From Thermococcus sp. SY098 (GTDB lineage: Archaea > Methanobacteriota_B > Thermococci > Thermococcales > Thermococcaceae): a DNA stretch of 64,000 nucleotides. The DNA is taken from contig NZ_CP141821.1 in NCBI RefSeq assembly GCF_035621495.1, positions 1,578,760-1,642,759 on the forward strand, written 5' to 3'. A program made the translations under genes and the position numbers. The notes beneath the pieces are model-generated. The model saw nothing but the letters and a program-made list of their open reading frames with translations. It was not told the origin of the DNA and ran no database searches. Shown piece after piece: positions 57,904 to 62,236 of this stretch; the stretch's first letter is position 1; every line of letters starts with the position of its first letter.

Positions 57904-59232
57904 ATGAGATGTCCAAGATGTGGGAGAGAGTATTCCTCTTTTATTCCTCCACGATGCCTATGTGGTGAACTGCTTGAGATAACATATGACTACTCCGCCG
58001 TTAATCCAAAGAAGTGGAAAAACCGTGAGAAAGGAGTTTGGCGCTATAAAGAGCTTCTACCAAGAGTTGATGAGATCGTAACTCTCAAAGAAGGGGGAAC
58101 TCCCTTAGTGAAAGCTAAAATTGGTGAAATGTTAAATCTCAGCGTCTACATAAAAGATGAGACTCGAAATCCTACAGGCTCTTTTAGAGACAGACTCGTA
58201 ACTGTTGGGGTTTCTTATGGCCTCCCTCATGCTGATAATGGTTTTATAGTTGCAAGCGATGGAAATGCCGCTGCTTCTTTAGCTGCTTATGCTGCAAGAG
58301 CTAACAGAGAGGCTTTTGTTGTAGTGCCGAGAAGGGTCGATAAAGGAAAGCTCATTCAAATGATAGCCTTCGGTGCAAAGATAATCCGCTATGGGGACAG
58401 TGTTGATGAGTGTGTAGATTACGCTAAAGAGCTTGCAAAGCTCAATGGCTTGTACGATATAACCCCAGAGAACAACATAATTGGATTAGAGGGACAGAAA
58501 ACTGTAGCTTTTGAGCTTTGGGAAGAGATAAATCCAACACATGTTGTTGTTCCAACGGGAAGTGGGAGCAATCTCTACAGCATTTATAAGGGTTTTAAGG
58601 AGCTTTTGGAGATTGGGGCAATTGAGGAATTGCCGAAGCTAATAGCTGTTCAAACAGATAAGTGCAACCCAATAGCGAGTGAAATTTTGGGGATAAGACA
58701 AAAGAGAGAATTCACAAAAGCTTTAGGGCTTTATGTTAAGGATCCTGCAAATCGGGAAAGAGCAGTTAAAGCTGTAAAAGAAAGTGGTGGAACAGCTGTC
58801 GTAGTTAGGGAAGATGAACTTGACTTGGGAGAAAAGCTATTGGCTAAAGAGGGTGTTTTTGTTGAATACGCATCAGCTGTAGTAGTTCCGGCTCTCATTA
58901 AGCTTAGCAATGAGGGATATTTTGAAAAAGACGATAGGATTGTTCTCATTGTCACTGGTTCCGGGCTCAAGAGCTATTATATAGATGAGCGTGAGAAGTT
59001 CTCCATTGGTGGAACTAAGCTTAAAATCCTCAAATTGCTGAAGGAAAAGCCTATGTACGGCTATGAAATATGGGAGAACTTAGAAAAGCCAATGAAGTAT
59101 CAAGCAGTTTACCAGCACATTAAAGAGCTTGAGAGCTTGGGGCTCATAGAAGAGGCATACAAGAAAGGAAGGAAAATTTACTACAAATTGACTGAAAAGG
59201 GACAGCGCTTGTTGGAGAACTTTGAAGAATAG
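57904..59232 (+). CDS. Threonine-synthase-like pseudoenzyme fused to a winged helix
   Basis: 442 residues. Residues 1-20 form a zinc-ribbon (CPRCGREY...CLCG). Residues ~50-365 are a fold-type II PLP domain of the threonine synthase kind (KEGGTPLVKAKIG; SDGNAAASLAAYAARA; VVPTGSGSNLYSIYKG). In the PLP motif, normally S-F-K-D-R, the Schiff-base Lys is Arg (NPTGSFRDRL), and the codon is AGA. Residues ~370-442 form a PadR-like winged helix (KILKLLKEKPMYGYEIWENL). Probably a ligand-sensing regulator rather than an enzyme; annotation as threonine synthase would be misleading. Confidence 0.8.
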   Translation: MRCPRCGREYSSFIPPRCLCGELLEITYDYSAVNPKKWKNREKGVWRYKELLPRVDEIVTLKEGGTPLVKAKIGEMLNLSVYIKDETRNPTGSFRDRLVTVGVSYGLPHADNGFIVASDGNAAASLAAYAARANREAFVVVPRRVDKGKLIQMIAFGAKIIRYGDSVDECVDYAKELAKLNGLYDITPENNIIGLEGQKTVAFELWEEINPTHVVVPTGSGSNLYSIYKGFKELLEIGAIEELPKLIAVQTDKCNPIASEILGIRQKREFTKALGLYVKDPANRERAVKAVKESGGTAVVVREDELDLGEKLLAKEGVFVEYASAVVVPALIKLSNEGYFEKDDRIVLIVTGSGLKSYYIDEREKFSIGGTKLKILKLLKEKPMYGYEIWENLEKPMKYQAVYQHIKELESLGLIEEAYKKGRKIYYKLTEKGQRLLENFEE

Positions 59233-59279
59233 AAAGAATTTTAAAGACCTTTAAATACTAAGCCTTTTAGGTGGGAAAC

Positions 59280-59603
59280 GTGAGAGTTGAGAGCAAAGTG
59301 TCACTTGTCATCTATGCAATGGGGGCTTTGGGTGGGATAATCAGCGGTGTACTTTCTGCTAACGCTAATCTTGGCTACATTGCCGGTCTGCTCTTGTATC
59401 TGCTAACTCCTAAGGTAATTAAAGCCACTATTAAGGATCTGCCTGGAGAACTGCAAGACGAGAATGTTCTTCTCAAGAAGTCATTTTGGGGCTTCCTGTT
59501 GTTCTGGTTTTACTTCACGATACTCGTTTACAACATAGTGCTCCCACAGCAGCCTGTGTTCTATTCAAATCAGAGCTTATTGTATAACGCAACAAAGGGA
59601 TGA
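59280..59603 (+). CDS. Small membrane protein (DUF5379/EMC6-like)
   Basis: 107 residues from a GTG at 59280 with GGTGG upstream. Three transmembrane segments (SLVIYAMGALGGIISGVL, LGYIAGLLLYLLTP, FWGFLLFWFYFTILVYNIVL), like the EMC6-type small proteins of the archaeal insertase-related group. Ends 3 bases before rpiA. A TATA-like TTTAAATAC lies at 59250-59258. Confidence 0.7.
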   Translation: MRVESKVSLVIYAMGALGGIISGVLSANANLGYIAGLLLYLLTPKVIKATIKDLPGELQDENVLLKKSFWGFLLFWFYFTILVYNIVLPQQPVFYSNQSLLYNATKG

Positions 59604-59606
59604 ATT

Positions 59607-60296
59607 ATGAACACTGAGGAGATGAAAAAGCTGGTCGCAAAGGAGGCTTTGAAGTATATTGAGGACGATATGATAGTTGGGTTAGGTACTGGTTCCACAA
59701 CAGCGTATTTCATCAAAATGCTGGGCAAGATGATTATGAACGAGGAGCTTTTTGATGTTTATGGACTGCCAACTTCATATCAAGCGAGAATTCTGGCTTT
59801 GGAGAGTGGAGTTCCGGTTGTTAGTTTAGATGAAGTTGATGCAATAGATATAGCCGTTGACGGGGCAGATGAGGTTGACCCGCATTTAAATTTGATCAAA
59901 GGCAGGGGAGCAGCTTTAACCATGGAGAAAATTATCGAGTATAGAGCTGGAACTTTTCTCGTTCTCGTTGATGAGTCTAAACTTGTGGAATATCTCGGAC
60001 AAAAAATGCCTGTTCCAATTGAGGTAATTCCAGCGGCTTGGAGGGTTATAAAGGAAGAGCTTGAAGTTTTTAATGCTACAGCTGAGCTCAGGATGGGTAT
60101 TAAGAAAGACGGCCCTGTAATTACGGACAATGGAAACTTCATACTTGATGCCAAGTTTGAAAGGATTGAAGACCCTCTGGATTTAGAGATTGAGCTTAAC
60201 AACATTCCTGGCGTCGTGGAGAATGGAATCTTTGCTGATATAGCTGATATTGTCTTGGTCGGCACTAAAGAGGGTGTTAAGAAGTTGGAACGCTGA
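59607..60296 (+). CDS. rpiA: Ribose-5-phosphate isomerase A
   Basis: 229 residues, standard length. MIVGLGTGSTTAYFIKMLG (phosphate loop), AVDGADEVDPHLNLIKGRGA (catalytic Asp, Lys) and LVDESKLVEYLG. Interconverts ribose 5-phosphate and ribulose 5-phosphate, feeding nucleotide synthesis. Last chromosomal gene before the integrated element. Confidence 0.97.
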   Translation: MNTEEMKKLVAKEALKYIEDDMIVGLGTGSTTAYFIKMLGKMIMNEELFDVYGLPTSYQARILALESGVPVVSLDEVDAIDIAVDGADEVDPHLNLIKGRGAALTMEKIIEYRAGTFLVLVDESKLVEYLGQKMPVPIEVIPAAWRVIKEELEVFNATAELRMGIKKDGPVITDNGNFILDAKFERIEDPLDLEIELNNIPGVVENGIFADIADIVLVGTKEGVKKLER

Positions 60297-60406: not shown

Positions 60407-61407
60407 ATTCTAAAATCCAAGTCATAACAACCGAGAAAAGCCAAAAAGAAGTTATGGACATGCTTCAAGAGCCTGACATTTTTTCTGAGCCAATTACCAA
60501 AAAGCAACCTTCTAAAGGCTTTCTGCTTAACGACCTATGGAAAGAGTATAAAAACAAATTCCTAAGCTGGTATCTAAATAAGAAATATAAAGGCAAAACA
60601 TTAGACCAACTGGAGAAAAACCAACGCAAAACAGTCAAATCATACATAAGCGCATTGGATAAACTATTCAGCAAATTTAAGATCAAAGACAACTTAGACA
60701 TCATGGAAGCACTAAAAGCGCTAAATTATGGAAAATGGTATGCAAACGGATTAAGAAACTTCTTGAACTTCTTATTCGAAATTGGCTTAATCAACATGGA
60801 AGATTATGAGAGAATGAAAAAAGCAATACAATCAAAGAAAGCTGAAGCACCAAGCGAAGAAGTCTTTGAAAAAATTAACATCAACGAAATCAAAAAAGCA
60901 TACAAAAGAGCAATCGAATACGTTAAGACAAAAAGCAGAATACCAAACGATCCGTTTCCACTATTCTTCAAGTTCTTATACTATACTGGCTTAAGGCTTG
61001 ATCAAGCGGTTAGAATCTTCAAGAACTTGAAGAAAAGCGACATTAAATTTGAAGGCAACATTGCTTATATCCTAACACATGAAGCAAAAAGAGGAAAGAA
61101 AGGAACTTACATCGCAATAATGCCTAAACACTTTGGAGAAGAATTAGCTGAAAATATAAGATACGTTGGCAACCTTCCAGAGAGAATTGATAAGCGCTTT
61201 GGTAAAGAAGGCATCAACTTTGGTGCAAAACTGCTTAGAAAATTCCACTACAACTTTTTAAGACAAAATGGCGTTGAAAAGGACATTGCAGAATTCATTC
61301 AAGGACGTTCAAGCGTTGATGTTGGATCAACACATTACCTTGATAAAATCAGACTTGCGAAAGAACAATATAAGAAAATCGCCGATAAGTTTCCAAAACT
61401 CGATTAA
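60358..61407 (+). CDS. int: SSV-type tyrosine integrase, C-terminal part (split gene)
   Basis: The frame is open from the stop at 60346, through the tRNA segment, to 61407; the first ATG at 60454 is not the true start because the N-terminal part is at the other junction. From 60454 the protein has 317 residues: a SAM-like core-binding domain (LDQLEKNQRKTVKSYISALD) and a catalytic domain. Catalytic candidates: Arg181 (YYTGLRLDQAVRI), Lys near 212-216, His265 in RKFHYNFLRQ, Arg285 and Tyr295 (GSTHYLDKIR). Integrase split on insertion into a tRNA gene is the SSV/pTN3 style. Confidence 0.85.
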   Translation, partial: AGVAEPGQRRWTQDPLHSKIQVITTEKSQKEVMDMLQEPDIFSEPITKKQPSKGFLLNDLWKEYKNKFLSWYLNKKYKGKTLDQLEKNQRKTVKSYISALDKLFSKFKIKDNLDIMEALKALNYGKWYANGLRNFLNFLFEIGLINMEDYERMKKAIQSKKAEAPSEEVFEKININEIKKAYKRAIEYVKTKSRIPNDPFPLFFKFLYYTGLRLDQAVRIFKNLKKSDIKFEGNIAYILTHEAKRGKKGTYIAIMPKHFGEELAENIRYVGNLPERIDKRFGKEGINFGAKLLRKFHYNFLRQNGVEKDIAEFIQGRSSVDVGSTHYLDKIRLAKEQYKKIADKFPKLD

Positions 61408-61922
61408 AGCTTCTTTTTCTTTTTGTTTGCTTCATAAAATTCCTTGATGAATTCTTTTGGTGTTAAGATGTAGAACTCATGAGAATTCAGCTTAAACTTT
61501 CTCGCTTTATCTCTGATTTTAAGCAAATGCTTCCTGTCATAGGTTATCAAAAACTCAGCTTTAGCATTATAGACAACATCAAGAAACGGAATGTCCTTTT
61601 CATCTTTTACAAGCTCCTTAATACGCTTACTCTTCTGGAAACTCTTTTTAATTGATATTAGCTTAGAAGAAGATATAACGGCACTAACTCTTAATATTGC
61701 AACTTCGACTGGAATCTTCTTTATTATTTTTGGATATGCCACCACGATCTTGTATTCTTGGAGTGTTTTTCGAGAGTAATAGTTAGTTATCTGACCAGTT
61801 AAGACTTTTTCAATCACTTCAAAGGCATATCCTTGTGAGGACATCAAAGCGGCAATTAAAACTGAAGTATCAAGGACTACTCTAAACCGAGCTTTTTGAG
61901 CTTTCTTTCGATTTCTTTCCAT
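61404..61922 (-). CDS. PIN-family toxin (COG1569 type) on the integrated element
   Basis: Up to 172 residues; the PIN domain begins at FRVVLDTSVLIAALMSSQG. Glu in KTLQEYKIV, acidic centre in EKDIPFLDVVYNAKAEFLI, then YDRKHLLKIRDK and LTPKEFIKEF. Paralogous in type to the toxins at 3097 and 5529. The start is uncertain because the frame overlaps the antitoxin by 46 bases. Converges with the integrase gene (4-base overlap of ends). Probably stabilises the element. Confidence 0.85.
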   Translation of the reverse strand: MERNRKKAQKARFRVVLDTSVLIAALMSSQGYAFEVIEKVLTGQITNYYSRKTLQEYKIVVAYPKIIKKIPVEVAILRVSAVISSSKLISIKKSFQKSKRIKELVKDEKDIPFLDVVYNAKAEFLITYDRKHLLKIRDKARKFKLNSHEFYILTPKEFIKEFYEANKKKKKL

Positions 61923-62173
61923 CTCTTGATTTCCTCCTCAGCCTCATAATAAATCTCGATTGCTTTCTCCTCGCTTATGCCAGTTCTTTCACTCTTCCAT
62001 TCCTGTAGTACTTGCTGAACTTCCTTTTTAGTCATTTTCTTGGTCTTGAGTTTTTTTAGATTAGCCTTCCACTCGTAATACTCTACAAGCTCTTTAGGTG
62101 AAACACCAACGGCCTTTGCAACTTCATTAATGAGGAGCCTAACACCTTCAGAGTTTTTCACTTTTGTAGCCAT
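61877..62173 (-). CDS. Antitoxin of the element's PIN toxin
   Basis: 98 residues from the ATG at 62173 (GGTGAG site). RLLINEVAKAVGVSPKELVE looks like a helix-turn-helix, followed by a long charged helical region (EEKAIEIYYEAEEEIKRWKE). It differs from the ribbon-helix-helix antitoxins paired with the chromosomal COG1569 toxins, so antitoxin type and toxin type have been reshuffled. It overlaps the toxin. Confidence 0.78.
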   Translation of the reverse strand: MATKVKNSEGVRLLINEVAKAVGVSPKELVEYYEWKANLKKLKTKKMTKKEVQQVLQEWKSERTGISEEKAIEIYYEAEEEIKRWKEIERKLKKLGLE

Positions 62174-62236
62174 CCAACTCACCACTCTAACCTTTGCATT
62201 AATCGTTTAAAAATTTGGTGAAAAAGAGAAAAGCAT

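Follow-up and report, generated by a model that had tools for sequence, protein, structure and literature searches.

The gene described here, which lies in a window of 64,000 nucleotides of Thermococcus sp. SY098 DNA and is named threonine synthase in the databases, likely encodes a DNA-binding repressor that senses vitamin B6 and controls vitamin B6 genes, an analogue of the bacterial MocR/PdxR regulators; we infer the ligand and the repression from sequence comparisons.

The open reading frame starts with an ATG, and its product matches the NCBIfam family NF004170 "threonine synthase" over its full length (799 bits for a cut-off of 421) as well as TIGR00260, also above threshold. Pfam recognizes a PALP domain (E 6e-68) and a PadR domain (PF03551, residues 375–438, E 1e-9, 38.5 bits for a cut-off of 27). 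The AlphaFold2 model (mean pLDDT 89, pTM 0.80) has two separate parts, the enzyme body and a winged helix at the C-terminus, with a low-confidence linker between them (Table 1), and a Foldseek search of the PDB ranked threonine synthases first (6cgq, 6nmx, 2d1f, 1v7c), the best match, 6cgq, having a TM of 0.86 over the target. The fused C-terminal PadR-like winged helix proposed in the preliminary description is thus recovered by both Pfam and structure prediction, and the order of the domains, enzyme fold first and winged helix last, is that of a reversed MocR-like layout, as it had stated. The N-terminal cysteine cluster is common to archaeal threonine synthases too.

Table 1. Features of the fused regulator gene, in window coordinates
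Feature	Position	Strand	Remark
Whole gene: 442-amino-acid fused regulator, database name threonine synthase (NF004170/PRK05638)	57904..59232	+	
N-terminal cysteine cluster (C3, C6, C18, C20), zinc-ribbon-like	57910..57963	+	metal binding inferred
PALP domain, residues 59–352: degenerate threonine-synthase fold, predicted PLP-sensing domain	58078..58959	+	
AGA codon of R95, site of the PLP Schiff-base lysine	58186..58188	+	
Residues 189–194: E189 and G194, aligned with Thermus S155 and R160	58468..58485	+	
Flexible linker, residues 355–369	58966..59010	+	pLDDT <50
PadR-like winged helix, residues 368–441	59005..59226	+	Pfam and AlphaFold2

The motif that carries the Schiff-base lysine in threonine synthases, NPTGSFKDR, reads NPTGSFRDR in the window protein, which agrees with the arginine reported from the first reading of the sequence; its AGA codon, then placed at about 58194–58196, in fact occupies 58186–58188. 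The SDGNAAAS and GSGSN loops are both present, as had been noted, the latter at a position where true threonine synthases have GNAGN. A sequencing error at the AGA codon was considered and ruled out, Arg being found in nearly all Thermococcaceae orthologues and in distant full-length archaeal relatives.

Among the 84 non-redundant fused proteins compared, the other positions of the PLP pocket are kept: N121 of the asparagine loop in 81, the phosphate-loop glycines G219 and G221 in 83 and 84, T351 in 82 and K356 in 83. We take S155 and R160 of the Thermus enzyme (1V7C) to be the contacts to the substrate phosphate. The arginine is lost in all 84 fused proteins, including those that bear the lysine, and the serine position is usually changed, being Glu in 64 of the 84. 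This pattern says, as far as alignments can, that the PLP pocket was retained while recognition of the phospho-substrate (O-phosphohomoserine) and catalysis would have been given up. The full-length NF004170 match, the TIGR00260 match and the shared fold speak for an active threonine synthase to which the winged helix is an accessory, in line with the database names. We nevertheless regard this as very improbable, as the Schiff-base lysine is replaced in most members, the phospho-substrate arginine is gone from all of them, and a canonical Lys-bearing threonine synthase is separately encoded in the same genome (C1:32937-34031).

Relatives were drawn from 121 genomes close to the window's own, from a sample of 392 archaeal genomes around genome G102 and from named GTDB contigs. 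We found the fused form in Thermococcaceae, in a further family of Thermococci, in Bathyarchaeota, in some Thermoproteota and in Asgard archaea (Odin-, Baldr-, Jord-, Heimdallarchaeota and others). In a tree of the enzyme domain, built with position 95 masked, all 84 fused proteins fall on one side of a single branch (SH-aLRT 98), so that the fusion needs one origin. Position 95 is Lys in all 33 unfused relatives and a residue other than Lys in 70 of the 84 fused proteins (R in 49, L in 10, I in 6, and Y, V, S, N and T once each), the remaining 14 having K. Whether Arg and the fused domain always occur together, as the preliminary description asked, is hence answered in the negative by the alignment: L, I, Y, V, T, N and S also occur, and K is found in two nested places of the fused clade, one being the Asgard group f31 and the other L026, from a single Thermococcaceae genome. 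Judged from these sequences, the fused lineage appears to be freed from the lysine requirement, the Arg itself being a clade-specific state.

Homologues combining Lys with the fusion, which had been named as evidence that would speak against a regulator should they act as threonine synthases, therefore exist, but they do not appear to be threonine synthases, since the substrate Arg is lost. Moreover, the genome that contains L026 (G010) has both operators described below (L217, L196), so its Lys does not indicate that enzyme function has come back. An internal aldimine could form in the members with Lys. The regulator gene of genome G019 (C1:1996288-1997570) runs over two frames and is apparently frameshifted or a pseudogene.

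The order of genes in the window (psmB, aCPSF1, the regulator gene, a gene for a 110-amino-acid membrane protein, rpiA) is uninformative on function. The predicted membrane protein (59271-59603, + strand) is without Pfam or NCBIfam match and adjoins the regulator in 18 Thermococcaceae loci. The rpiA gene (59607-60296, + strand), encoding ribose-5-phosphate isomerase, lies two genes 3' of the regulator, an arrangement shared by many Thermococcaceae (17 loci, cluster c4). Since PdxS uses ribose 5-phosphate as a substrate, the regulator–rpiA order may perhaps not be accidental, though the window genome has no pdxS. Beside rpiA, the region 60454-62185 contains an archaeal phage-type integrase (PF16795) and after it a PIN toxin (TIGR00305) with a small partner of 102 amino acids, possibly the edge of an integrated element with a toxin-antitoxin pair.

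Clustering of the genes that neighbour the regulator across archaeal lineages was more telling. An ECF S component of the PF07155 family (gene hereafter ecfS) lies close to the regulator in 33 loci, in some of them with EcfA and EcfT, and the PLP synthase genes pdxS and pdxT do so in seven (five Heimdallarchaeota and two others). The regulator is also divergent from GINS and MCM genes in several lineages (L041, L042, L043, L074, L082, L084, L149, L151, L153, L155), which we take as conserved gene order without drawing a functional reading. The sole significant PDB relative of the S component is HmpT (4hzu_S). HmpT was first named an HMP transporter, but its bound substrate was identified as pyridoxamine by mass spectrometry (PMC4860826), and PF07155 includes the known B6 transporters PdxU and PdxU2/HmpT (PMC9997740). 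Three of the six HmpT ligand-contact residues (Y120, N140, Q143) are conserved in ecfS and E41 is D or E, whereas H84 and Q87 have become K and E, so that more than one vitamer is conceivable.

Gene neighbourhood together with the conserved operator described below points to vitamin B6 genes as the predicted targets, i.e. pdxS/pdxT and the HmpT-like S component. The original proposal of a ligand-sensing regulator, made of a dead PLP-enzyme fold on a DNA-binding head, is supported, and free PLP was among the ligands it listed; its expectation of amino-acid genes as targets is not. Its main reading, a sensor of an amino acid or phospho-amino acid that acts on amino-acid genes, could draw on the partly kept substrate side of the fold and on the fact that amino acids bind the threonine-synthase fold as PLP adducts, but it seems unlikely to us given that both neighbours and operator sites are those of vitamin B6 genes and that the contacts to the substrate phosphate are lost. 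A regulon for another vitamin would also have to be weighed, for instance the thiamine precursor HMP with the S component as its transporter, in keeping with the first name of HmpT and with weak matches of PF07155 to riboflavin- and folate-type S components. We give this very little credence, as the product of the second target, pdxS, is PLP, as the sensing domain has a PLP-enzyme fold, and as ecfS and pdxS of genome G150 are adjacent on one strand with a single operator in front.

The regulator gene of Thermococcaceae is unlinked to its predicted targets. At the unlinked ecfS and pdxS promoters of this family, the palindrome TTCAAGTTNNAACTTGAA is found just 3' of the TATA box, the upstream regions of ecfS having TTTCAAGTTTTAACTTGAAA directly 3' of the box. 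In the window genome, which lacks pdxS, the operator (C1:1029403-1029422) is located about 27 bp before the start of ecfS (C1:1029449-1030051), and in a genome-wide pattern search this was the only site with fewer than three mismatches, matches with three being no commoner than in a reversed-pattern control. No operator was detected within the 64-kb window or at the promoter of the regulator itself, where just three-mismatch matches at chance level occur. The exact core CAAGTTNNAACTTG is present in zero to three copies per genome in 91 Thermococcaceae genomes, mostly upstream of ecfS or of the unlinked pdxS, and four genomes (G002, G003, G009, G028) have one copy at each of the two genes.

Counting an operator as present at 13 or more matches out of 16, we found it at ecfS in 35 of 39 Thermococcaceae genomes with the regulator versus none of nine without it, and at pdxS in 28 of 31 versus none of 16 (Fisher p of 4e-7 and 6e-10, plain values inflated by relatedness). 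Regulator-lacking genomes keep a TATA-like box at pdxS and have no palindrome; three Pyrococcus genomes and G067 have the regulator and lack a good operator at ecfS. Along the gene tree of pdxS, presence of the regulator changes about six times, and three of these changes are forced by well-supported branches. In each of these three contrasts the operator goes along with the regulator, a number too small for a sign test to reach significance. Because independent losses of the regulator are so few, the statistics of co-occurrence are weaker than the raw counts.

The presence pattern of the genes was assessed in 65 largely complete Thermococcaceae genomes. ecfS occurs in all 49 that have the regulator and in nine of the 16 that lack it (p 2e-5, a plain value for genomes that are related). 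pdxS is missing from ten genomes, that of the window included, all of which have both the regulator and ecfS. At least one of pdxS and ecfS is present in every genome; we considered this as proof of B6 transport and rejected it, the absence of double negatives being not significant alone (ten and seven of 65, p 0.58).

Operators of the same type extend beyond Thermococci. In Heimdallarchaeota, with Leu at position 95, TATACAAGTTATAACTTGTATA stands between the divergent regulator and pdxS genes, and in the Asgard group f31, with Lys at this position, TATAAGTTNNAACTTATA lies upstream of ecfS; close variants of the core are found in Odin- and Bathyarchaeota. Outside Thermococcaceae, the exact core AAGTTNNAACTT is present in 13 of 38 upstream regions of ecfS or pdxS versus none of 298 upstream regions of other genes at the same loci. 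For targets located far from the regulator, the exact core was found at ecfS of G142 and G150, and nothing clear was seen at pdxS of G124, G141, G170, G149 and G157 or at ecfS of G133, G149 and G157. The second Thermococci family has looser sites of the type TACAAG-N6-CTTGTA. In another clade of fused regulators, a palindrome of the TATAGG-N4-CCTATA type lies between regulator and ecfS, a difference that suggests a shift of operator specificity; there, the intergenic regions of L171, L173, L182, L183 and L184 have ATATATAAG/TATAGG arms separated by 4–6 bp.

The unlinked position of the Thermococcaceae regulator gene, together with its lack of an operator of its own, leaves room for a B6 operator bound by another transcription factor, the fused protein having a different role or merely assisting. 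This appears improbable in view of the Heimdallarchaeota, where the same core stands between the regulator gene itself and pdxS, of the many lineages in which the regulator neighbours ecfS or pdxST, and of the Thermococcaceae genomes from which operator and regulator are missing together.

Thus, we propose that the fused protein acts as a repressor of vitamin B6 genes in the following way. The threonine-synthase-like domain would bind free PLP or a PLP adduct, probably non-covalently, since the catalytic lysine and the phospho-substrate arginine are lost and the rest of the PLP pocket is kept. The C-terminal winged helix, as a dimer, would bind TTCAAGTTNNAACTTGAA 3' of the TATA box of ecfS, for vitamin B6 uptake, and also at pdxS, for PLP synthase, where this gene is present. 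When PLP is plentiful, the bound form would block transcription, and when it is scarce the ecfS and pdxS genes would be open; in the window genome ecfS alone would make up the regulon. That this protein is what binds the operator is very likely, and there are good grounds to expect its ligand to be PLP or a closely related B6 species. The protein probably represses, with PLP as its co-repressor, because the operator sits at the expected transcription start and end-product control is the usual logic. With less assurance, we also favour a deep-rooted family of archaeal transcription factors whose sensor, a fold-type-II PLP enzyme that is catalytically dead, would report free PLP non-covalently. 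This control of B6 would have arisen independently of MocR/PdxR, by a single fusion, and would have kept the core AAGTTNNAACTT from Thermococcales through to Heimdallarchaeota and further Asgard lineages.

If this proposal is correct, the name threonine synthase is given to a broad group of archaeal genes that in fact encode regulators, and a vitamin B6 transporter S component becomes assignable in many archaea. Archaea would also gain a vitamin B6 repressor, none having been found described in the open literature. In the open-access literature we found no publication that deals with PRK05638, with a threonine synthase fused to a winged helix or with a PLP regulator from archaea, and predictions could exist elsewhere. 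The family would be an independent counterpart to MocR, showing how the pocket of an enzyme turns into a sensor of its cofactor, and R, L, I, Y and K would be its natural variants at the former Schiff-base site. Thermococcus or Pyrococcus would allow direct tests of the predicted operator and regulon.

Several known systems resemble the fused protein in part. In PadR regulators the winged helix is N-terminal and a helical dimerisation domain comes after it; the fused protein shares their winged-helix domain (PF03551), which in its case is C-terminal and has PALP as partner. RbkR, the archaeal riboflavin regulator, is a winged helix fused to a riboflavin kinase whose activity is kept, and is likewise an enzyme-derived archaeal regulator of vitamin synthesis and uptake genes, but with another enzyme fold, another vitamin and an active enzyme. 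In the CymR-CysK system of Bacillus, a fold type II PLP enzyme also serves as sensor for a winged-helix regulator, there as two separate proteins, with an active enzyme and in cysteine metabolism. With ThrC (NF004170/PRK05638, TIGR00260) the fused proteins share fold, common descent and most PLP-pocket positions, and they differ in lacking the catalytic Lys (most) and the phospho-substrate Arg (all), in having the winged helix and in their link to vitamin B6 genes; the protein is thus, from its sequence features, a member of the threonine synthase superfamily by descent that apparently lacks what defines the enzyme. In function the parallel is with MocR factors, the known PLP sensors among regulators, which bind PLP and join a GntR winged helix to an aminotransferase-like domain, and of which PdxR controls pdxST; they are reported not to be present in Archaea (PMC5320631). 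Both join a PLP-enzyme fold to a winged helix. MocR/PdxR act on PLP synthesis genes via repeated operator boxes; the operator predicted here lies at pdxS and ecfS. However, the winged helix of MocR is N-terminal and of the GntR type instead of C-terminal and PadR-like, and its enzyme domain is a fold type I aminotransferase instead of a fold type II threonine-synthase domain. The fused regulator would work like PdxR, yet is no member of the MocR family.
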